DNA from: a virus
Virus record (IMG/VR): IMGVR_UViG_3300018424_010020
Coordinates: 1 to 22,741 of that record
Length of the DNA: 22,741 nucleotides
Strand: one strand, 5' to 3'
Positions 3,002 through 17,518 of the stretch are shown here, piece by piece. Below the pieces are notes generated by a model that did not search any database, was not told the DNA's origin, and saw only the letters and a program-made list of their open reading frames with translations. How positions within the stretch are numbered: position 1 is the stretch's first letter; every line of letters starts with the position of its first letter. Made by a program: the position numbers and the translations under genes.

Positions 3002-3029
3002 TTGACTTATCCGTGTATTAGTATATAAT
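3002..3029 (+). promoter_or_regulatory. Sigma-70-type promoter before the sigma-like operon
   Basis: TTGACT at 3002-3007 and TATAAT at 3024-3029 are 16 bases apart, one mismatch from consensus in the -35 and none in the -10 box. Transcription would start near 3036, 26 bases ahead of the ATG at 3062. This is the only convincing host-type promoter I saw. It would let host RNA polymerase make the phage sigma-like factor first. The late motif CGTGTATTA lies inside its spacer. Confidence 0.7.
3012..3020 (+). promoter_or_regulatory. Late-promoter motif, CGTGTATTA variant
   Basis: CGTGTATTA at 3012-3020 differs from the other copies only in its first base. It is 50 bases upstream of ATG 3062 and lies between the -35 and -10 boxes of the sigma-70 promoter, so the two promoters overlap. 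If used by the phage sigma-like factor, it would let that factor re-drive its own operon. Confidence 0.6.
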
Positions 3030-3061: not shown

Positions 3062-3205
3062 ATGATTACACCAGTTAATTCAGAATTAAAAATAGTTGCC
3101 TCAGAACAGCTCGAACAGTCTATAGCATCCGACCTAGAAAGCGAACAAAAAGAACCGCTAGAGGAACTTATTGCCAAGAATGAAAAAAACACCACTACCG
3201 AATAA
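3062..3205 (+). CDS. Small acidic protein of unknown function (47 residues)
   Basis: The ATG at 3062 opens a 47-residue frame ending at TAA 3203-3205. A Shine-Dalgarno-like GAAAGG (3049-3054) lies 7 bases before the start, and the gene is the first downstream of the promoter region at 3002-3029. The product is acidic and Ser/Glu/Gln-rich, with a probable helix around residues 14-42 (S-E-Q-L-E-Q-S-I-A through E-E-L-I-A-K). There is no cysteine or membrane segment. Its 3' end overlaps the sigma-like gene by 26 bases, so it may couple translation of that gene. I recognise no family. Position before a sigma-like factor leaves open an anti-sigma, adaptor or leader-peptide role, but nothing in the sequence proves it. 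Confidence 0.6.
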   Translation: MITPVNSELKIVASEQLEQSIASDLESEQKEPLEELIAKNEKNTTTE

Positions 3206-3812
3206 TGTTGATGAAAAAGAGTTTGTAGAAATTCTTCACCGTATTGTTAAAAAGCTTGGCTATAAATTTATTTTTGGCTATCACTCATATGAAGATATGT
3301 ACCAACAAGCCGCCATATTTGCCATAGAGGGCTTAGAAAAATATGATAGCTCTAAACCCCTAGAAAACTTTCTCTGGACCCATCTCCGTAATAGACTATT
3401 CAACTTTAAGAGAGATAACTTTAAACGCCCAGACAAACCATGCATAAACTGCAAATATTATGATAAAGATTGTTTAAAATCTGATAATCAATGCACCGAA
3501 TTCGCCCAAGTCATAGACTGTCCTCTGTACAAAAAGTGGTATATCAGGAATTCTAGCAAACAGAATATCATGAAGCCTACTAGTATAGAAAACGAAAAAA
3601 CAATCGCAAATTATAGAGAAGATGATTTATTGGTGGATCTGTCTAATACAGAATTATTATCTCAAATAGAAAAGGAATTGCGGGGAGAATATCGGGAAAT
3701 TTATCTGAAAATTAAACATGGATCCAAGGTTAATAAGACAGAAACTAGAAAACTACAACAACATATACAAGAAAATATATTATGTCAAAAAAACGAGGAC
3801 AACTATCTCTAG
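3180..3812 (+). CDS. Phage sigma-70-like factor (region 2) with a cysteine cluster, probable late sigma factor
   Basis: Residues 36-80 match sigma-70 region 2: Y-E-D-M-Y-Q-Q-A-A-I-F-A-I-E-G-L-E-K-Y-D, then F-L-W-T-H-L-R-N-R-L-F-N-F, the pattern that binds the RNA polymerase clamp helices and the -10 element. It is followed by a Cys-rich insert with cysteines near residues 88, 91, 98, 105 and 114, a possible zinc site. The C-terminal 60 residues are helical and charged; only a weak region-4-like stretch is visible. This minimal layout recalls T4 gp55, which directs late transcription from a -10-only promoter. I chose ATG 3180; a TTG at 3171 lies closer to the GAGGAA at 3161-3166 and would add three residues. 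The gene overlaps both neighbours (26 and 31 bases). The repeated GGTGTATTA motif in this window is its natural candidate target. An alternative is a general phage regulator with a sigma-like fold. Confidence 0.72.
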   Translation: MKKTPLPNNVDEKEFVEILHRIVKKLGYKFIFGYHSYEDMYQQAAIFAIEGLEKYDSSKPLENFLWTHLRNRLFNFKRDNFKRPDKPCINCKYYDKDCLKSDNQCTEFAQVIDCPLYKKWYIRNSSKQNIMKPTSIENEKTIANYREDDLLVDLSNTELLSQIEKELRGEYREIYLKIKHGSKVNKTETRKLQQHIQENILCQKNEDNYL

Positions 3813-4594
3813 AAGAACAGAAATTTATTGAAGATAATATAGGATCTATGGATGTAGAATCTATTGCAGAATATCTCAACAGAAGCACTAGTCCTATAGA
3901 AAAATATATCAAAGAAAATCAAATTTTCGCCTCTAGAGATGACAGAAAAGATCATGAGATTTTAAAACATAAATTACATGGAAAAAGTTTTTGGCAGGAA
4001 ATTACCAGACAGTTTGACGAAGATAGTGGCGAGTTAGAATATTTTGAAAATACGTGGATTAATTTAGTAAAGCAGTTTCGAGAGGATGTATTAGCCGCAG
4101 AAGAGCTTCAGATCAAGCAGTTTATAACTATAGACATATTGATCAATAGAAGTATGAAAGAGCGTAAGAGACACATCTCAGACACTGAGAAGCTACAAAA
4201 AGAGGTAGACAAAGAGTATGCTAAAAGTGATGAAGATAGAGATGTTCCAAAACTTGCTAATCTAGAAACACAATTAAGCTTTGCTCGCAACAGCATAACA
4301 AATTATACCAATGAATATACGAAACTATTAAATGAGCAGCAAAAGATTAGCAAAGATCTAAAAGCTACTAGAGAGCAGAGAATCAAGAGAATAGAAGACG
4401 GTAAAAGCAGTTGGGTTGGATTAATTAGAATGTTAGAGGATGAAGAGGTTAGAGAAAAAGAAGGTAAAGAAATGGAAATCTTGAAACTTGCTGTCAATAA
4501 AGCTAAAGAAGGATTAAGTGAGTATCACACATACAACGATGACAAAATAGACCAACCGTTTTTACTTCCGGAGACAGTAGCAGATGATGAATAA
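3782..4594 (+). CDS. Putative terminase small subunit (HTH plus coiled coil)
   Basis: This 270-residue protein starts with a short helix-turn-helix-like domain (residues 8-48: L-E-E-Q-K-F-I-E-D-N ... V-E-S-I-A-E-Y-L ... I-E-K-Y-I-K-E-N), followed by a long, highly charged helical region from about residue 105 to 215 that looks coiled-coil, and an acidic tail. An N-terminal DNA-binding domain followed by a helical oligomerisation region, upstream of the large terminase and portal, is the classic small terminase layout, which recognises viral DNA and regulates packaging. Four genes separate it from the large terminase, which is unusual and lowers confidence. It overlaps the sigma-like gene by 31 bases and gmd by 11. 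I see no strong ribosome binding site, consistent with translational coupling. It could instead be another DNA-binding regulator. Confidence 0.5.
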   Translation: MSKKRGQLSLEEQKFIEDNIGSMDVESIAEYLNRSTSPIEKYIKENQIFASRDDRKDHEILKHKLHGKSFWQEITRQFDEDSGELEYFENTWINLVKQFREDVLAAEELQIKQFITIDILINRSMKERKRHISDTEKLQKEVDKEYAKSDEDRDVPKLANLETQLSFARNSITNYTNEYTKLLNEQQKISKDLKATREQRIKRIEDGKSSWVGLIRMLEDEEVREKEGKEMEILKLAVNKAKEGLSEYHTYNDDKIDQPFLLPETVADDE

Positions 4595-5627
4595 AAAAAC
4601 AGCTTTGATTTCTGGAGTCACAGGACAGGACGGCAGCTATTTATCAGAACTTTTGCTAGAAAAAGAGTATATTGTTATTGGGTTGCATAGAAGAACAAGC
4701 ACAAACAGTTTTGATAGAATATCTGGAATATTACAGCACCCAAACTTTTCTTTGTGTGAATTTGACTTGTGTGACAGCAGTAGCGTCTATGAGGTTGTAG
4801 ATCGGTATAAACCAGATGAATTTTATAACCTAGCTGCGCAGAGTCATGTAGCAACAAGTTTCAAACAACCCTCTTTAACGTTTGATATTAACACTCAGGG
4901 AGTGGTGAATGTTCTCGAAGCCATTAGAAAATATTCACCAAATACTAAATTATACCAAGCCGGAACAAGTGAGATGTTTGGTCGTAATTATTCTGTAGAC
5001 GATAAAGGCTTGAAATATCAAGACGAAAATACACAATTTTTACCTCAAAGCCCATACGGAGTGTCGAAATTAGCTAGTTACAGAATGTTGCAAATTTACA
5101 GAGAAGCATATGGGATGTTTGTGTCTAACGGCATTCTTTTTAATCATGAAAGTCCTCGTCGCGGCGAGTTGTTTGTTACTCAAAAAATTGCATTATGGAT
5201 TAAATCTTTTTTAAGATGGTGCAGATCTAATAATTTAAGTCCTATAGAACTAGAATCAAAAGACGATAAATTAGTCTATAATAATCTAATATATGATAAA
5301 TTAAGATTAGGGAATCTGAAAGCAGAAAGAGACTGGGGTCATGCTAAAGATTATGTTAAAGCTATGTGGTTAATGTTGCAGCAGGATAAGTCAGATGATT
5401 ATGTAATTTCTTCGGATCAAACTCATTCTATTGATTTTTTTCTTTCCTTAGCATTTAATAAAATTGGCATTAAAGACTATAAAAAATACATTTATATTGA
5501 TCCCAAATTCTGTAGACCTGCAGAAGTAGATTACTTATGTGGCAGGTCTGATAAAGCCAGAAAAGAGCTGGGCTGGTTACCTTTATTATCCTTTGAAGAT
5601 CTCGTAGCGGAAATGTTAAATGAATAG
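4584..5627 (+). CDS. gmd: GDP-mannose 4,6-dehydratase
   Basis: The enzyme converts GDP-D-mannose to GDP-4-keto-6-deoxy-mannose, the precursor of GDP-L-fucose, GDP-D-rhamnose and GDP-perosamine. The 347-residue protein is an extended short-chain dehydrogenase: NADP-binding G-x-x-G-x-x-G at residues 11-17 (GVTGQDG), LHRRTS soon after, NLAAQSHV, the catalytic T128-S129-E130 (TSEMFG), Y158-x3-K162 (YGVSK), and NHESPRRGE, which is diagnostic for this family. D-W-G-H-A-K-D-Y near residue 250 is also typical. All catalytic residues are present. Length is within the usual range. There is no second-step enzyme (reductase, epimerase or aminotransferase) in the window, so the final sugar is unknown and may depend on the host or on genes elsewhere. 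It overlaps its neighbours by 11 and 8 bases and is thus co-expressed with packaging genes. ATG 4587 could serve as start instead of 4584. Confidence 0.95.
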   Translation: MMNKKTALISGVTGQDGSYLSELLLEKEYIVIGLHRRTSTNSFDRISGILQHPNFSLCEFDLCDSSSVYEVVDRYKPDEFYNLAAQSHVATSFKQPSLTFDINTQGVVNVLEAIRKYSPNTKLYQAGTSEMFGRNYSVDDKGLKYQDENTQFLPQSPYGVSKLASYRMLQIYREAYGMFVSNGILFNHESPRRGELFVTQKIALWIKSFLRWCRSNNLSPIELESKDDKLVYNNLIYDKLRLGNLKAERDWGHAKDYVKAMWLMLQQDKSDDYVISSDQTHSIDFFLSLAFNKIGIKDYKKYIYIDPKFCRPAEVDYLCGRSDKARKELGWLPLLSFEDLVAEMLNE

Positions 5628-6349: not shown

Positions 6350-8360
6350 AATATATGAAGATGCTTGGCTGGGCTTAGGGGATCTGTCTAAGTTAGAACT
6401 TGATTCTAACAAGATGATTCATCGTAGCAAAAAAGACATAGAAAACCCAGATCAGCATTTAATGAGAATTTTTAGAGACACTAATTATTTAGCGTCTACC
6501 TGTAAACTGCTATTTGACATAGAGCTTCATCCGATCCAGGTTGCAATATTACAGGAATTTTGGGTTCGTCCATTTCCTATGTTTATAGCTAGTCGTGGCT
6601 TTGGTAAGTCTTTCTTGATGAGCTTATATTGTATTCTTAAATGTACGTTTGTCCCAGCTACTAAAATTGTGGTGGTTGGTGCTGGTTTTAGACAGAGTAA
6701 AATTTTGTTTGAGTATATGGATACTATTTGGAAAAGTAGTCCCATATTAAGGAGTATTTTTAGCGGTAACGAAGACGGCCCTAGAAGAGATGTGGATAGA
6801 TGCACAATGAGACTTGGAGATAGTTGGACAATTGCTATTCCAATGGGTGATGGAAGTAAAATTAGAGGTTTGAGAGCGCACATCATTATTGCTGACGAAT
6901 TTGCTTCTATGTCTCCAGAAGTTTACGAAACGGTTGTTTCTGGTTTTGCTGCTGTTAGCGCCAGTCCTATTCAGAATGTGAAAGAAGAAGCTAAAAAACA
7001 AGCTATGCAAGATATGGGTATTTGGAATGAAGACTTGGCTACACTAAGCAAAAAAATGGGTAACCAGGCTATAATTAGTGGTACTGCAGACTATAGCTTC
7101 AAACATTTTTCCAGCTATTGGAAAAGATATAAAGCTATTGTTCAGAGCAAAGGCGACCCTGTTAAGCTAAGAGAGGTATTCCAGGGAGAGGTTCCTGAGA
7201 ACTTTAATTGGAGAGATTATAGTGTAATTCGCATTCCATACGAATTGATACCTAAAGGATTTATGGACGATAAGCAGATAGCTAGAGCCAAAGCCACCAT
7301 TCATACTGGTATATATAACATGGAATATGCAGCATGTTTTACCGAAGACAGCGAAGGGTTTTTTAAGAGAAGTTTGATTGAAAGCTGTGTAACATCAGAC
7401 AAAAATCCAATCATGATCAATAATGAAGAAATATTATTTGATGCAATGATTGAGGGCGACAATTCTAAACAGTACGTTTATGGTATTGACCCTGCTAGTG
7501 AACAGGATAATTTTAGTATTGTAGTTATCGAAATCAATCCAACACATAATAGAATTGTATATTGTTGGACTACAAATAGAGGTAATTTTAAAGATAGACA
7601 AAAAACAGGATTGGTTGAAGATCAGGATTTCTACAGTTTCTGTGCTAGAAAAATAAGAAATCTTATGAAAATATTTCCTCCAGTCAGAATAGGTATGGAT
7701 GCTCAGGGTGGTGGTATAGCTATTGAAGAAGCTTTACATAATCCTAAAAATTTGGATCATGGAGAAGTTTTAATATGGCCCGTTATAGATGAGAAAAAAT
7801 CTAAAGAGTCAGACAACCAGGCTGGATTACATATTGTAGAGATGGTACAATTTGCTAGAGCAGAATGGACAGCAGAAGCCAATCACGGATTGAGGAAAGA
7901 CATGGAAGATAAGTTATTGTTATTTCCGAGATTTGATGGTGTTTCTTTAGGTTTGGCTCTCAATAAAGAAAACAGAGATATTATGGATGCAGATCTTAAT
8001 CCTATATATGATAGTTTAAGTGAATGCATTTTAGAAATAGAAGAGCTCAAAAATGAACTAACTACTATTGTTATGACCAAAACGAGCACAGGGCCAAATG
8101 CTAGAGACAGGTGGGATACTCCTGAAGTTAAATTACCAAATGGTAAAAAAGGCAGAATTAGAAAAGATAGATACAGTTCTTTGGTCATAGCAAATATGCT
8201 AGCTCGACAGATAAAAAACAAAATTCCAGCAGTCAAATACGAGGTGGTGGGAGGTAATAGAATAGATGTAAAAATGCATAAAGGAGACATGTATAAAGGC
8301 CCAGCTTGGTTTACAGACGCAGCTAATGACGATATATATACTGGAGTATACTACGATTAG
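6330..8360 (+). CDS. Terminase large subunit (packaging ATPase and nuclease)
   Basis: This is the DNA-packaging motor and headful/cos nuclease. The 676-residue protein has a phage-type Walker A at residues 88-94 (SRGFGKS), a Walker B with the catalytic carboxylate at 185-190 (IIIADE), and a RNase H-like nuclease domain with acidic residues at D387 (YGIDPAS) and D457 (IGMDAQGGG). The start is a TTG at 6330: AGGAGGG at 6314-6320, the strongest ribosome binding site in this part of the window, lies 9 bases upstream, and no in-frame ATG falls near. The gene overlaps the ERCC4 nuclease by 20 bases. The length is somewhat above the common 450-600 residues. It ends in the final base before the GGTGTATTA promoter of the head genes. 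No domain looks broken. Confidence 0.95.
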   Translation: MNNPNLKIYEDAWLGLGDLSKLELDSNKMIHRSKKDIENPDQHLMRIFRDTNYLASTCKLLFDIELHPIQVAILQEFWVRPFPMFIASRGFGKSFLMSLYCILKCTFVPATKIVVVGAGFRQSKILFEYMDTIWKSSPILRSIFSGNEDGPRRDVDRCTMRLGDSWTIAIPMGDGSKIRGLRAHIIIADEFASMSPEVYETVVSGFAAVSASPIQNVKEEAKKQAMQDMGIWNEDLATLSKKMGNQAIISGTADYSFKHFSSYWKRYKAIVQSKGDPVKLREVFQGEVPENFNWRDYSVIRIPYELIPKGFMDDKQIARAKATIHTGIYNMEYAACFTEDSEGFFKRSLIESCVTSDKNPIMINNEEILFDAMIEGDNSKQYVYGIDPASEQDNFSIVVIEINPTHNRIVYCWTTNRGNFKDRQKTGLVEDQDFYSFCARKIRNLMKIFPPVRIGMDAQGGGIAIEEALHNPKNLDHGEVLIWPVIDEKKSKESDNQAGLHIVEMVQFARAEWTAEANHGLRKDMEDKLLLFPRFDGVSLGLALNKENRDIMDADLNPIYDSLSECILEIEELKNELTTIVMTKTSTGPNARDRWDTPEVKLPNGKKGRIRKDRYSSLVIANMLARQIKNKIPAVKYEVVGGNRIDVKMHKGDMYKGPAWFTDAANDDIYTGVYYD

Positions 8361-8368
8361 GTGTATTA
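8360..8368 (+). promoter_or_regulatory. Late-promoter motif before the portal gene
   Basis: GGTGTATTA at 8360-8368 begins on the last base of the large terminase stop codon and is 47 bases before ATG 8407 of the portal. The 46-base gap holds no other recognisable site and is A/T-rich. It would start transcription of the head gene block. Confidence 0.7.
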
Positions 8369-8406
8369 TTTTTTAACAATCGTATTACATTTAAATTACA
8401 ATCAAA

Positions 8407-10590
8407 ATGAACAAATATCCTAAAAGTGAAGCAGAAAATAACAGCGAGTTAATAGGTCAAAATGCCTATGTTGTATGGGGTGATGATCTAGCTAGTAAAA
8501 AAGAGGCTTTGTCTGCTTCTGCAGATTCTCTAGACGAATGTATAGGTATTCAAAAAACCTCTGGTAGCAGAAGATACAGCTTAGACTATTCTAATTTAGA
8601 CACCAACACTTCTGGTCGTCCAGGTTTAACCAAATCAGATTATTATTACTTTCGACCAGACGAAGAACCTCCTCGTAATTTTAAACTTATTGTTAAAAAA
8701 GCAGAGGATATATACAATCGCGTTGGTTTGGTCAAAAATGTGATTGATCTTATGGGTGATTTCTCGAGTCAGGGTATTCGATTAGTTCATCCATCTAGAC
8801 GAATAGAAAAATTTTATCAAACCTGGTTTAACAAAATTAATGGTAAAGATAGAAGTGAGAGATTTTTAAATAATCTCTATAAAACAGGCAATGTTATTAT
8901 TCATAAACAAACAGCAAAACTAAATCGCAAGTCCACACAACAGATGTTCAAAGCTCAAGCAGCCGATATAAAAATTAATGATATTACAGATGTTGTGCTA
9001 GGAGTTAAAGAAATTCCATGGAAATACACATTTATTGATCCTTATTACGTAGATGTTTATGGGGGAGCGGTGGCTTCCTTTTCGAATCATAAAAGATATC
9101 AGCTCACTTTGCCAGCAGCTTTGAGGAAAATAATCAATTCTCCCAAAAGTCCTGAGGAAGTGGATCTTGTTAGTAAGTTACCAGCAGCTATAGTTGAAGC
9201 GGCTAAGCAAAAAAAGGCTTATCCTTTGGATCCAGATAAGACTGCTGTTTACCACTATAAAAAAGATGACTGGCAGAGTTGGGCTTATCCTATGATTTAT
9301 GCAATAATGGATGATATTGTGATTATTGAAAAACTCAAGTTGGCAGATATGGCAGCTTTAGATGGGGCTATCTCTAATATTCGTATTTTTAAGTTAGGTA
9401 ATCTAGAACATAAAATAGCACCAACCAAAGCAGCAACATCTAAGTTAGCTCAAATATTGGGTAATAATGTTGGTGGGGGCACAATGGATCTGGTTTGGGG
9501 TCCAGATATAGAACTGATCGAAAGCAATACAAATGTTCATCAATTTTTAGGGGAAGGTAAATACACTCCACATTTAAACAGTATTTATGCTGGGCTGGGT
9601 ATTCCTCCTACTTTGACAGGAACTTTTGGAGCGGCTGGTACAACAAATAACTTTATTAGCCTAAAAACACTAACACAAAGATTGCAATATGGTAGAGATA
9701 TTTTAACTAAATTTTGGCAGCAAGAAATTATAGCACTACAAAAAGCTATGGGTTTTAAAGATCCTGCTTTCATTGAGTTTGATAGAATGGATCTTTCGAA
9801 CGAAGAGGCGGAAAAAGCACTGCTTATACAATTAGCAGATAGAAACTTAATTTCTGATGAGCTACTACAAGCTAAGTTCGATATTAATTCAAGTATCGAA
9901 AGAATCAGACTCAACAAAGAACAAAGAAGACGGGAAAACGGGAAAATGTGGCCAAAAGCCAGTCCGTATCATGATGCTAATCTTGAAGGAGGTCTTCAAA
10001 AAATTGCATTACAGTCTGGCTCGGTAACGCCAAGCGAAGTTGGTCTGAAGCTTAAGATTCGAGATCCAAATCAAAAAACTAGACTTCAATTACAACAGGA
10101 CTTAAAAGGCGACAGTAACCCACCAACGAAGTTGGGTAAAGATGATCCCGGTAAATCTTTGCCTGATAGATCAGGAAAGGGTAGGCCTCCAAGCTCGCAA
10201 GATACCAAAGAAAGAAAAACAAAAGAATTTGCACCGCAAACAGGAGCAAAAATGATGTTATGGGCGTGTGCCGCTCAAACAAAAATCGATGAAATTATCA
10301 ATCCTATAATATTAGATTATTTTAACAAGAAAAATTTACGCTCATTATCAAGTGAAGAATACAAATATCTAGAAAATATAAAAACACAAATACTATTTGA
10401 ACTTAAACCTTTCGGTGTAATTAATTCAGATAGCGTAGCTTCTTTAATACAGAACAACCATAACCACCACACACTCAAAAAATATAATAGTTGGCTAATT
10501 GGTATGAAAAATGACCCAGAAAAACCATTGACAGTTGAAGAACAAAGAAATGCCAAGGCCATTTTTTACACAAACACCCATGCGAGATAA
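8407..10590 (+). CDS. Portal protein with a long C-terminal extension
   Basis: The portal forms the dodecameric vertex through which DNA enters and leaves the head. Position between the large terminase and the prohead protease is diagnostic. The portal-like core covers about residues 60-500, with a stem-like part around 350-440 (N-x-H-Q-F-L-G-E-G, I-Y-A-G-L-G-I-P-P-T-L-T-G, then N-F-I-S-L-K-T-L-T-Q-R-L). The last 190 residues are different: a Lys/Gly/Pro/Asp-rich low-complexity linker (about 555-600) followed by a helical domain with A-C-A-A-Q-T-K-I-D-E-I-I. At 727 residues it is longer than most portals. ATG 8407 is 47 bases after a GGTGTATTA motif; I see no Shine-Dalgarno sequence in the A/T-only leader. 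The next gene begins 3 bases after its stop. Confidence 0.88.
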   Translation: MNKYPKSEAENNSELIGQNAYVVWGDDLASKKEALSASADSLDECIGIQKTSGSRRYSLDYSNLDTNTSGRPGLTKSDYYYFRPDEEPPRNFKLIVKKAEDIYNRVGLVKNVIDLMGDFSSQGIRLVHPSRRIEKFYQTWFNKINGKDRSERFLNNLYKTGNVIIHKQTAKLNRKSTQQMFKAQAADIKINDITDVVLGVKEIPWKYTFIDPYYVDVYGGAVASFSNHKRYQLTLPAALRKIINSPKSPEEVDLVSKLPAAIVEAAKQKKAYPLDPDKTAVYHYKKDDWQSWAYPMIYAIMDDIVIIEKLKLADMAALDGAISNIRIFKLGNLEHKIAPTKAATSKLAQILGNNVGGGTMDLVWGPDIELIESNTNVHQFLGEGKYTPHLNSIYAGLGIPPTLTGTFGAAGTTNNFISLKTLTQRLQYGRDILTKFWQQEIIALQKAMGFKDPAFIEFDRMDLSNEEAEKALLIQLADRNLISDELLQAKFDINSSIERIRLNKEQRRRENGKMWPKASPYHDANLEGGLQKIALQSGSVTPSEVGLKLKIRDPNQKTRLQLQQDLKGDSNPPTKLGKDDPGKSLPDRSGKGRPPSSQDTKERKTKEFAPQTGAKMMLWACAAQTKIDEIINPIILDYFNKKNLRSLSSEEYKYLENIKTQILFELKPFGVINSDSVASLIQNNHNHHTLKKYNSWLIGMKNDPEKPLTVEEQRNAKAIFYTNTHAR

Positions 10591-10593
10591 AAC

Positions 10594-12243
10594 ATGAATA
10601 TTTTTCAGCAAGAATATGATGACGGCATAGCAGATTTACTCACAGCTAGTAAATCACATATTAGTTTTGCTTCTTTAGCCACGCCGTCTCCAGACCATAC
10701 GATGATAAGAAATAATTTCAAATCTTCTGCATCATATAATGATGACGATCTATACTATGTACAGTCTATTTTAGTGACATCTAATTGGAATAAAAATGAC
10801 GACATATTCGATGCTCCAGAGGTGTGGGCAGCTAGAAAAACTCCAGAAGATAAACCAACTAATTTAGAACATGATGAAAAAACTATAGTTGGACATATTG
10901 TGTCTAATTGGGCAATAGATGAAGCTGGGCAAATTTTAGACGAAACTATGGCTTCAGATGACTTGCCTAGTAAATTTCATATTATTACTGGTTCTGTAAT
11001 TTATAGAGCTTTTACCGATCCAGAATTAAAGTCTCGTGCAGAAAATCTTATTCAGCAGATAGAAAATGGACAAAAATATGTAAGCATGGAATGCTATTTC
11101 AAAGGCTTTGATTATGGCTTAAGAGACGCTCAAGGTAATCTAAAAGTAGTGGCTAGAAATCAAGATACAGCATTTTTAACGAAACACTTAAGAGCTTATG
11201 GAGGTACTGGACAACACGAAGATTATCAGATAGGTCGTGTACTAAGAAGTATCACGTTTTCAGGTAAAGGTTTTGTAGATAAACCAGCTAATCCAGAAAG
11301 TATTATTTTCAATAAGGATGATCTTTCTAAAATAATTTTTGCTAATGAACAAAAAAAACCGGTTTCAGAAAAAACAGGTGTATTAAAAAGTAATAAAATT
11401 TCTAACTCTCAAAATGATGGTGTACATATGAATTTAGAAAACGAAATTTCCCAATTACAACAAACCATGGCTTCGATTAAATCGGATTACGACAGTAGTC
11501 TTGAAACTTCAAAGTCAGAGATCGAACAGCTTAAATCTTTAAACAATGAACTAAAACAGGAGTTAGATAATACTATGAGTAATCAAGAAGAACTTTCTAA
11601 AGCCAATGAAGAAAAAATTTCAGCGCTTGAAGCTCAAGTTGCTGAGCTTAAAAGCGTAATTGAGCAAGCAGAGGCCACCAAGGCAGAACTCTCAGAGCAA
11701 TTAGAAGCTAATGCTGGCGAACATGATAAAAAAATGAAGGAAAAAGAAGAAGAATTAAAGAGCAAAAGTGAAGAAGTGGAGACTTTGACCACAGAAGTTG
11801 CTCAATACAAAGAAGACAAAATGAAGATGGAAGAGAAAATGAAAAAAGACAAAAGAATGGCAACTCTTGTTGAAGCTGGCATGAGCCAGGAAGAAGCAGA
11901 GAAAACAGAAGCCAATCTTAATGCTCTTTCAGACGAACAATTTGACTCTATCGCAGAAACTTTCAAAGCATCTTTGGCAGCAAAAAATGAAGAAGAGACA
12001 GAGGCAGGAATGCCACCAGCTCTTAAAGAAGCCATCGAGAAAAAGAAAGAAAAAGAAGAAGAGTCAAAAGCAGAACAAGAATCAGAAGAAGTTGATGCTT
12101 CTGTACTTGAAGATGTAGAATTGGCAGAAGAAGCCGACCTTAGCGTTGGTAGCGAAGTTTCAGAAGAAGTAGAAAATACAAGAGCGGCTCTTGTAGATTT
12201 TGTGTATAATAGGTTAGGCAAAACAAACCAAAAGGGAGAATAA
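10594..12243 (+). CDS. Prohead protease fused to scaffold
   Basis: The 549-residue protein has two halves. Residues 1-250 form a herpes/phage-type prohead serine protease: an H93 in L-E-H-D-E-x4-G-H-I and S164 in Y-V-S-M-E-C fit the His and Ser of the catalytic pair, followed by I-G-R-V-L-R-S-I-T-F-S-G-K-G-F-V-D-K-P-A-N-P. Residues 279-420 are a long, highly charged coiled coil, then an A-G-M-S-Q-E-E-A-E helical segment and a strongly acidic tail, as in capsid scaffolds. The fused protein would place the protease within the growing head; it would then cut itself and the scaffold away. It starts 3 bases after the portal stop and ends 2 bases before the decoration-protein ATG. A promoter motif and an ATG at the junction suggest the second half is also made alone (see 11428-12243). 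Confidence 0.88.
   Translation: MNIFQQEYDDGIADLLTASKSHISFASLATPSPDHTMIRNNFKSSASYNDDDLYYVQSILVTSNWNKNDDIFDAPEVWAARKTPEDKPTNLEHDEKTIVGHIVSNWAIDEAGQILDETMASDDLPSKFHIITGSVIYRAFTDPELKSRAENLIQQIENGQKYVSMECYFKGFDYGLRDAQGNLKVVARNQDTAFLTKHLRAYGGTGQHEDYQIGRVLRSITFSGKGFVDKPANPESIIFNKDDLSKIIFANEQKKPVSEKTGVLKSNKISNSQNDGVHMNLENEISQLQQTMASIKSDYDSSLETSKSEIEQLKSLNNELKQELDNTMSNQEELSKANEEKISALEAQVAELKSVIEQAEATKAELSEQLEANAGEHDKKMKEKEEELKSKSEEVETLTTEVAQYKEDKMKMEEKMKKDKRMATLVEAGMSQEEAEKTEANLNALSDEQFDSIAETFKASLAAKNEEETEAGMPPALKEAIEKKKEKEEESKAEQESEEVDASVLEDVELAEEADLSVGSEVSEEVENTRAALVDFVYNRLGKTNQKGE
11377..11385 (+). promoter_or_regulatory. Late-promoter motif inside the protease gene, before the scaffold start
   Basis: GGTGTATTA at 11377-11385 lies in the linker between protease and scaffold coding parts, where it reads as G-V-L in frame, and is 51 bases before the in-frame ATG 11428. 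The bases around it match the intergenic copies in being A/T-rich. It would allow a separate scaffold transcript. Confidence 0.62.
11428..12243 (+). CDS. Nested in-frame scaffold protein (internal start)
   Basis: An in-frame ATG at codon 279 of the protease-scaffold gene begins exactly where the coiled coil begins (M-N-L-E-N-E-I-S-Q-L) and would give a 271-residue scaffold without the protease. GGTGTATTA lies at 11377-11385, 51 bases before this ATG, the same arrangement as for four independent gene starts in this window. The A/T-rich low-similarity linker (residues 250-278) in between looks like the join of two proteins. Known phages do the same: lambda Nu3 is made from inside gene C, so scaffold copies outnumber protease copies. 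There is no strong ribosome binding site before the ATG (only GATGGTG), which is the weak point. This is an inference from the motif position and the domain boundary. Confidence 0.6.
   Translation: MNLENEISQLQQTMASIKSDYDSSLETSKSEIEQLKSLNNELKQELDNTMSNQEELSKANEEKISALEAQVAELKSVIEQAEATKAELSEQLEANAGEHDKKMKEKEEELKSKSEEVETLTTEVAQYKEDKMKMEEKMKKDKRMATLVEAGMSQEEAEKTEANLNALSDEQFDSIAETFKASLAAKNEEETEAGMPPALKEAIEKKKEKEEESKAEQESEEVDASVLEDVELAEEADLSVGSEVSEEVENTRAALVDFVYNRLGKTNQKGE
12202..12210 (+). promoter_or_regulatory. Possible late promoter, variant GTGTATAAT, before the decoration-protein gene
   Basis: GTGTATAAT at 12202-12210 (preceded by T) shares the first six bases GTGTAT with the other motif copies but then has AAT. 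It is 44 bases before ATG 12246, at the usual distance. It lies inside the last codons of the scaffold gene, so selection on coding could also explain it. Confidence 0.4.
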
Positions 12244-12245
12244 CA

Positions 12246-12713
12246 ATGGCATTAAAACCTGATCGTTTAGAAACAGTCACAGACGTTTCATTTTTCATGA
12301 ACAATTCCACAGGCTCAACTATTGAGCGTGGTGGCATAGCATCAATTTCAACAGAGGGTAGCGGAGTTGCTATGGACGACGCTAATAGCGTTGTGGCTTA
12401 TGCAGCAGCTGCTAGTGGTGCAAAGCCAGTAGGTGTTCTATTAAATGATGTGGTTGATCTTGATCTTACAAGACAACATATCAATTATCACAAAGACGAA
12501 GTTCAAAAGGGTGGCAAAGTGACTTTGCTACAAGTTGGTCAAGTAACCACTGATCAAATTTCTGGTACTCCTGCTGCTGGTGACGTTGCTTACGTTGCTG
12601 CCAGTGGTCTTATCGGTAATGATTCAGATAGTGGTAATAATGCTCAAATCGGTAGATTCTTGAGTAAAAAAGATTCAGATGGTTATGCAAAAGTAGCAGT
12701 TAACATTGCCTAA
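12246..12713 (+). CDS. Capsid decoration protein (head-stabilising, lambda gpD-like position)
   Basis: The 155-residue protein lies between the scaffold and the major capsid protein, where long-tailed phages keep their decoration protein. It is rich in Gly, Ala, Ser, Val and Thr and reads as short beta strands joined by turns: G-G-I-A-S-I-S-T-E-G-S-G, K-P-V-G-V-L-L-N-D-V-V, K-G-G-K-V-T-L-L-Q-V-G, G-D-V-A-Y-V-A-A-S-G, I-G-R-F-L. That pattern is typical of small beta-tulip or gpD-like capsid surface proteins that bind the expanded head. ATG 12246 has AAGGGAG (12231-12237) 8 bases upstream. A TGTGTATAAT promoter-like element starts 45 bases before it. Like the capsid gene, it has a good ribosome binding site, expected for an abundant structural protein. 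Confidence 0.78.
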   Translation: MALKPDRLETVTDVSFFMNNSTGSTIERGGIASISTEGSGVAMDDANSVVAYAAAASGAKPVGVLLNDVVDLDLTRQHINYHKDEVQKGGKVTLLQVGQVTTDQISGTPAAGDVAYVAASGLIGNDSDSGNNAQIGRFLSKKDSDGYAKVAVNIA

Positions 12714-12738: not shown

Positions 12739-13743
12739 ATGTCAGCTAATAATTTTAATGCCACCCCAGAGCTTACTGATCTTTTAGTAAAATCTGGTTC
12801 TCTAGACAAAAATGTTGCTTTGGCAGCAACTAGAGAATTTGCTAAAGCTCTCGAACTACCATTGAGACAGGGTATTCTTAGTGGCGATATCCTTAATGGT
12901 ATTTTTGAGCCTATTCAACTAGCTCCAGGAGCAACCCCAGAATTCCAATTGGACTTCTTGGCTCCAGGTACTGAAAAAGATTTTGTGGCTTATACGCTAC
13001 CAAATCACGGCTTAATTCCAGAGCGTCACGTTGAAGGCGATTATGTCATGGTACCAACCTATGACATTGGTTCTTCAATCGACTACTTACTAAAGTATGC
13101 TCGTGATGCCCGCTGGGATGTTGTCGGTCGTGCAATGGAAGTTCTCGAAGCTTCTTTTGTTAAGAAAATGAATGACGATGGATGGCACACCATTCTTGCT
13201 GCTGGTGTTGACCGTAACATCGTTGTGTTCGATGATGACGGCGTTGCTGGTCAATTTACAAAGAGACTAGTGAGCCTTATGAAAACTGTTATGCGCAGAA
13301 ATGGTGGTGGTAACAGCGCCAGCAATAACAGGGGTATGTTGACAGATCTTTATGTTTCACCAGAAGCTATGGAAGATCTTAGAAATTGGAATGTGGATCA
13401 GATTGATGAGGTAACTCGTAGAGAAATCTATACCGCCGCTGATGGCGCTATCAATCGTATTTTTGGTGTTAATTTACATGATCTAGATGAGCTAGGTGTC
13501 GGTCAAGAATATAACGCTTTCTATGATGACACCATGAGCGGTACTTTCCCAACTGATGATACAGAAATTGTTGTGGGTCTGGATCTCAGAAGAAGGGATA
13601 GTTTCGTTATGCCAGTTCGTGAATCGGTTCAGATCTTCGAGGATGATACTCTTCATCGTCAAAAGAGAGCTGGTTTTTACGGTTGGGCAGAGCAAGGCTT
13701 TGCTGTTCTAGACAACCGTAGAGTTCTTCTAGGTTCTCTCTAA
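12739..13743 (+). CDS. Major capsid protein (HK97 fold)
   Basis: This 334-residue protein builds the head shell. Position after scaffold and decoration genes, before a strong terminator, and its composition fit an HK97-fold capsid protein: an N-terminal arm (L-T-D-L-L-V-K-S-G-S-L-D), an E-loop/P-domain-like middle (I-P-E-R-H-V-E-G-D-Y-V-M-V-P-T-Y, then a long spine helix with A-R-D-A-R-W-D-V-V-G-R-A-M-E-V-L-E), an A-domain with L-Y-V-S-P-E-A-M-E-D-L and a C-terminal F-V-M-P-V-R-E-S-V-Q-I-F-E-D-D. ATG 12739 is the start, with AGGGAG (12724-12729) 9 bases upstream; an in-frame TTG at 12706 overlaps the previous gene and lacks such a site. Codon use looks richer in G/C than in its neighbours, as expected for high expression. 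The perfect terminator hairpin follows 27 bases after the stop. Confidence 0.92.
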   Translation: MSANNFNATPELTDLLVKSGSLDKNVALAATREFAKALELPLRQGILSGDILNGIFEPIQLAPGATPEFQLDFLAPGTEKDFVAYTLPNHGLIPERHVEGDYVMVPTYDIGSSIDYLLKYARDARWDVVGRAMEVLEASFVKKMNDDGWHTILAAGVDRNIVVFDDDGVAGQFTKRLVSLMKTVMRRNGGGNSASNNRGMLTDLYVSPEAMEDLRNWNVDQIDEVTRREIYTAADGAINRIFGVNLHDLDELGVGQEYNAFYDDTMSGTFPTDDTEIVVGLDLRRRDSFVMPVRESVQIFEDDTLHRQKRAGFYGWAEQGFAVLDNRRVLLGSL

Positions 13744-13770: not shown

Positions 13771-13798
13771 AAGGGCTGGGTTTTCCCAGCCCTTTTTT
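13771..13798 (+). terminator. Intrinsic terminator after the major capsid gene
   Basis: A perfect 10-base-pair hairpin, AAGGGCTGGG / CCCAGCCCTT, with a TTTT loop (13781-13784) is followed by TTTT (13795-13798). It lies 28 bases after the capsid stop codon and directly before a late-promoter motif, so it ends the head transcript. It is the clearest terminator in the window. Confidence 0.92.
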
Positions 13799-13804
13799 GA
13801 TATA

Positions 13805-13813
13805 GGTGTATTA
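13805..13813 (+). promoter_or_regulatory. Late-promoter motif before the neck genes
   Basis: GGTGTATTA at 13805-13813 follows the terminator by 6 bases and is 43 bases before ATG 13848 of the adaptor gene. Between them is GAGGG (13834-13838), a ribosome binding site. It restarts transcription after the capsid terminator. Confidence 0.72.
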
Positions 13814-17509: not shown

Positions 17510-17518
17510 GGTGTATTA
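17510..17518 (+). promoter_or_regulatory. Late-promoter motif before the tail tube gene
   Basis: GGTGTATTA at 17510-17518 is 48 bases before ATG 17558, in the intergenic space between the terminator-like protein and the tail tube. GGAGAG (17546-17551) is the ribosome binding site. It would give the tail tube gene its own strong transcript. Confidence 0.72.

Follow-up and report, generated by a model that had tools for sequence, protein, structure and literature searches.

A promoter-like motif and an in-frame scaffold start nested in the head-protease gene of a tailed-phage clade

The window, by which we mean the whole 22,741-nt stretch of viral DNA that was analyzed, carries on its + strand a protease-scaffold fusion gene of 549 aa (10594–12243), whose product is predicted to combine a protease domain with a long helix. 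The protease domain and its N-terminal extension (residues 1–240; 10594–11313) are supported by invariant alignment columns, by structural models and by PDB matches, and are followed by a disordered, length-variable linker (residues 241–278; 11314–11427) with pLDDT below 50, indels and low conservation. In the AlphaFold model of the protein, a beta-rich protease domain (residues ~53–240) leads through a low-confidence linker (241–280) into a long helix (281–427). Pfam and PHROGs give the 549-aa protein no name, a tblastn search with the gene against an annotated phage collection returned no match at the threshold used, and a PDB sequence search with the full protease-scaffold alignment returned coiled-coil matches only. 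When the protease domain was modelled alone (mean pLDDT 79.5), the top 15 PDB matches were all herpesvirus proteases, the assemblins, with probabilities up to 1.00, a best E value of 4e-3 and a TM of ~0.4, and the alignments contain an invariant GH (G100-H101) and YVSMEC (S164) as candidate catalytic residues. Moderate structural evidence therefore identifies the first domain as a predicted maturation protease. A first scan of IMG/VR gave at least 58 relatives of the gene, and a profile scan covering 600 candidate stretches gave at least 595; both counts lean toward the closest relatives and come from uncultivated contig fragments.

Inside this ORF, the sequence GGTGTATTA is found on the + strand at 11377–11385 (core GGTGTA, 11377–11382), in the non-conserved linker, with an in-frame ATG 51 nt further on (11428), just as a preliminary description of this DNA had reported. 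The same description had the coiled coil begin at this ATG, and the AlphaFold model agrees, as the ATG encodes residue 279, at the beginning of the predicted coiled-coil helix. The nested scaffold ORF (11428–12243, + strand) has 271 codons, shares its stop codon with the fusion gene and starts MNLENEIS, with MNLENEISQLQQTMASIK as the predicted N-terminus of its product. It is preceded by a weak Shine-Dalgarno-like GGTG (11419–11422, + strand), the form of the ribosome-binding site in the window and its closest relatives, and most other members of the window's clade, here clade A, have GGAG. In the 3′-terminal part of the scaffold coding sequence lies an inverted repeat (TACAAGAGCGGCTCTTGTA; 12177–12195), which could act as a weak terminator or simply be coding sequence.

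The + strand of the window contains four exact copies of GGTGTATTA, whereas 500 dinucleotide shuffles average 0.09 copies and never exceed 2. The three non-nested copies, at 8360–8368, 13805–13813 and 17510–17518, lie 47, 43 and 48 nt ahead of the ATGs of structural genes at 8407 (the portal gene), 13848 and 17558, respectively. The copy at 13805 is situated directly 3′ of an intrinsic terminator (13771–13794, + strand) composed of a 10-pair hairpin and a T run, which follows the capsid gene. Between the scaffold ORF and this terminator, the + strand encodes a capsid cement/decoration protein (12246–12713; Pfam Phage_cement 5e-6; PHROG 563) and the major capsid protein (12739–13743; PHROG 2522 major head protein 4e-5; Bacillus phage G major head protein 2e-5). 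On the − strand there is one exact copy (2649–2657), ~150 nt into the sense strand of the gene at 967–2802, which is likely a chance occurrence. This − strand gene, which we take by eye to be glucosamine-fructose-6-phosphate aminotransferase-like, and the gene at 4584–5627, presumably GDP-mannose dehydratase-like by the same kind of inspection, lie near the head genes and suggest that the phage carries sugar metabolism genes.

To characterize the motif more generally, an unbiased ranking was made of the hexamers found 30–62 nt ahead of genes in 23 related genomes. GTGTAT ranks first (39 occurrences vs 2.8 expected) and GGTGTA second (28 vs 2.7), so that the nested site is a copy of the top-ranked gene-upstream motif, and other hexamers enriched in the same interval (GACTCG, ACTCGG, CATTGC) are candidates for a further control element. 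Alignment of the gene-upstream sites yields the consensus RGTGTAT, many of the sites are preceded by a hairpin and a T run, and no −35-like block was found upstream of them. The upstream sites of clade A begin with G in 132 cases, A in 50, T in 18 and C in 1, and the distance from motif to ATG at non-nested genes has a median of 48 nt (10–90% range, 35–57), the nested sites mostly falling at 39–51 nt. As these first-base and distance figures agree, the nested site has the promoter form and spacing that are clade A's own. From the position of the RGTGTAT motif, its association with terminators and its enrichment, we infer that it is a promoter. Host sigma-70 promoters were rejected as a candidate, as a scan for them was no richer than in shuffled sequence (41 vs 40.7).

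A possible reader of the motif is encoded at 3180–3812 (+ strand), where a 210-aa protein with sigma-70 region 2 (Pfam Sigma70_r2 3e-6; PHROG RNA polymerase sigma factor 4e-6) is a candidate late sigma factor with relatives in loci of all three clades considered here (A, B and C). A one-mismatch copy of the motif, CGTGTATTA, occurs at 3012–3020 (+ strand) in the region upstream of its gene. One weak domain match suggests that this phage sigma-like protein might recognize the motif, and a sigma factor having only region 2 would fit a motif that has no −35 element, as in T4 late transcription. The likeness to T4 late promoters lies in the short single-block motif without a −35 element and in the detection of region 2 only in the sigma-like protein; the consensus here is RGTGTAT and differs from the T4 late (gp55) consensus TATAAATA, the resemblance being one of layout.

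Comparison within clade A reveals that the nested elements are fixed in an otherwise fluid region. RGTGTA and the in-frame ATG are kept in all 94 distinct clade A linkers checked, usually with GGAG between them (all three are present in the linker of L138), while the surrounding linker is hypervariable in both sequence and length, the pattern that the preliminary description had anticipated. A count of 93/95 linkers has two exceptions, L066, which does carry the motif, and L145, a contig from a bacterium that does not belong to the clade proper. For 37 fourfold-degenerate conserved columns, third-base changes were counted along a tree built from 98 different clade A sequences, and the two motif codons show none at all (GGT in 95/95 Gly, GTA in 97/97 Val), compared with at least 14 changes in each of the other 35 columns and a median of 31 over all 37. 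As GGT accounts for ~50% of Gly codons and GTA for ~32% of Val codons in clade genes, codon preference is an unlikely cause of the fixed motif codons. The motif starts GGTGTA in all clade A relatives except L130 and L136, which have AGTGTA; the resulting Gly-to-Ser codon AGT carries the other base permitted by the promoter consensus, and AGTGTA is also the variant ahead of the portal genes of these two members. The absence of third-base changes together with a Gly-to-Ser replacement that follows the consensus indicates that the constraint on the motif codons, as judged by this substitution pattern, is on the DNA rather than on the protein. On the same two observations, a Gly-Val constraint acting on the protein (a cleavage site, for instance) was rejected, and on the shuffle counts combined with the zero synonymous changes, so was a chance occurrence. 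The nested Met (Met279) is conserved in 24/24 representatives, and the Glu codon at the Shine-Dalgarno position is GAG in 79/81 relatives, with GAA leading at every other Glu column scored.

The sister clades B (relatives of L061) and C (relatives of L144) have GGAG and an in-frame ATG at the end of the linker in the sequences listed, among which no conserved nested motif was found; AGTGTA in some clade B linkers was set aside as synonymously unconserved. The promoter-like motifs of clades B and C read TTTGTGTAT and occur ahead of the portal gene and 26–31 nt before the protease's own ATG, where a TTTGTGTA site is present in nearly all members, and strong TTTGTGTAT copies are seen ahead of the protease gene in, e.g., L158 and L237. 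The first motif base is R in clade A and mostly T in clades B and C, and promoter specificity may have shifted between the clades. As clades B and C have the ATG and GGAG without the motif, the promoter is separable from the translation start; from the sequences compared, the predicted internal start is a feature common to clades A, B and C, and the predicted promoter is restricted to clade A. Loss of both motif and ATG from a retained fused gene, the outcome that the preliminary description had set against its own proposal, is not the pattern seen, with clade A keeping both and clades B and C keeping the ATG. A tree built from 76 protease domains recovers clade A as monophyletic (support 1.0) and, having no true outgroup, is compatible with a gain of the promoter in A or a loss in B and C.

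Protease-domain relatives are also present in bacterial sequences. L146, the chromosome of the planctomycete isolate Limnoglobus roseus, has one at 7992–10380 that is split by a transposase-like ORF (8528–9564), which suggests a decayed prophage and a possible clue to the host group, and L145 is a GC-rich bacterial contig encoding a 298-aa relative at 3668–4564. No scaffold coiled coil was detected in either of these two contigs.

The genes served by the nested motif can be predicted from the distribution of sites across clade A, in which the motif lies ahead of 85/90 portal, 53/100 protease, 5/97 cement and 0/92 capsid genes. With no motif before the capsid gene and few before the cement gene, the nested site is the last one ahead of the capsid gene, and as a terminator follows that gene in the window, the nested promoter probably serves the scaffold, cement and capsid genes together. 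This refines the earlier proposal of a promoter dedicated to the scaffold: a DNA-constrained motif does precede the nested ATG, but it is likewise the sole motif ahead of the cement and capsid genes up to the terminator. Tailed-phage heads in general contain 12 copies of the portal protein and hundreds of copies of scaffold and capsid proteins, and a short RNA for scaffold, cement and capsid fits these copy numbers.

The organization that we regard as very probable treats the 549-aa gene as a pair of genes sharing a single frame, with a nested promoter and a nested start that would make the scaffold separately. Long transcripts, e.g., from the promoter before the portal gene, would yield the protease-scaffold fusion, which would bring the protease into the forming head. 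The RGTGTAT-type promoter in the disordered linker would yield a shorter RNA starting ~10 nt downstream, with a leader of ~40 nt and translation from the ATG at 11428 to give the 271-aa scaffold alone, and this RNA would go on to cover the cement and major capsid genes, ending at the terminator at 13771. The high-copy head parts (scaffold, cement, capsid) would thereby receive extra RNA and the low-copy portal and protease none. The sequence itself supplies the motif with its conservation at the DNA level, an ATG and a Shine-Dalgarno sequence that are both conserved, the order of the genes and the terminator. Predicted from these are the identity of the motif as a promoter, its reading by a phage sigma factor, the 5′ end of the short RNA and a 271-aa product.

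Other explanations divide according to which of the nested elements they take to be functional. The translation start could act alone on one long mRNA, in the manner of lambda Nu3 or Mu, with the motif a by-product of a conserved Gly-Val pair, and clades B and C, to judge by their sequences, would do exactly this, having GGAG and the ATG without a conserved nested motif. In clade A, however, a constraint on the protein would leave third bases free, and the Gly-Val codons instead show no synonymous change and a Gly-to-Ser replacement along the promoter consensus, which makes this explanation very improbable for the window's clade. Conversely, the promoter could be real and belong to the capsid operon, driving the cement and major capsid genes, with the nested ATG incidental. 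The lack of any other motif ahead of the clade A capsid gene and the terminator after it fit this arrangement, but the ATG and its Shine-Dalgarno sequence are conserved independently, including in the promoter-less clades B and C, and this ATG would come before any other start on the short RNA, with a leader of the usual length; an incidental ATG is accordingly very improbable.

Instead of being a promoter, the GGTGTA element could act in the RNA, in processing or in the control of translation, and the location of the motif inside transcribed sequence would allow for this. Such a role is very improbable given that the motif is often found directly after terminators, where a new transcription start is needed, and that the nested leader has no notable RNA structure (z −0.23).

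Nested scaffold genes are known from both herpesviruses and phages. UL26 and UL26.5 of HSV-1 and PrV overlap in frame and have identical 3′ ends (PMC4498786), with a promoter located within the UL26 frame according to Liu and Roizman 1991, as cited in PMC4498786. In HCMV, the UL80.5 transcript encodes the scaffold only and is thought to set stoichiometry (PMC9732275). Clade A resembles the UL26/UL26.5 and UL80/UL80.5 pairs in having an in-frame, 3′-coterminal scaffold gene inside a protease-scaffold gene. Herpesviruses make the scaffold-only product from a separate internal transcript, for which the counterpart in clade A is a nested promoter predicted from sequence. The window's predicted protease domain also best matches assemblins, a moderate similarity seen at the level of predicted structure only. 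The UL26/UL26.5 type is further characterized by autocleavage at release and maturation sites. Unlike the herpesvirus systems, the arrangement here is in a tailed phage, uses a short phage-type promoter motif and a Shine-Dalgarno sequence, and would have the scaffold share its RNA with the cement and capsid genes. By analogy of organization, HSV UL26/UL26.5 is the closest mechanistic parallel to the predicted clade A system.

Among phages, lambda and P2 use one gene for both protease and scaffold, C and Nu3 overlapping in lambda (PMC8508860, which cites Shaw and Murialdo 1980 for the C/Nu3 nesting), and the scaffold of Mu-like phages begins at an internal start equipped with a Shine-Dalgarno sequence (PMC4378225). 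The clade A gene shares with these a nested in-frame scaffold start and a ribosome-binding site in the protease gene, weak in the window. The nesting in lambda C/Nu3 and Mu-like phages is described as translational, whereas clade A adds a promoter-like motif and clades B and C look lambda-like; the assemblins as top structural matches of the protease model are a further difference from the lambda and Mu-like genes. The parallel with Nu3 in gene C offered by the preliminary description consequently holds for the internal start, and the nested promoter is better matched by UL26/UL26.5. The literature searched, of which coverage was partial, yielded no report of a phage in which a scaffold promoter lies inside the protease gene; within that literature, the arrangement in a head-protease gene is known from herpesviruses, and a nested promoter-like motif plus start in a phage, as read from sequence, appears to be new.

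Tailed phages and herpesviruses have a common head-assembly pathway, and both need much more scaffold than protease. The scaffold-nesting phages described in the literature searched use internal translation and herpesviruses use a nested promoter, and clade A appears to do it in the herpesvirus style. It is likely that in this large uncultivated phage clade the ratio of protease to scaffold is governed by transcription initiated at the nested promoter, and in its sister clades by translation alone, which would make the clade A arrangement a counterpart of UL26.5, most likely of independent origin within one clade. The linker of clade A would offer an example of a promoter held inside coding sequence by means of two fixed codons in a disordered linker, and the promoter-less sister clades mean that the gain or loss of such a promoter can be studied in comparable genomes.
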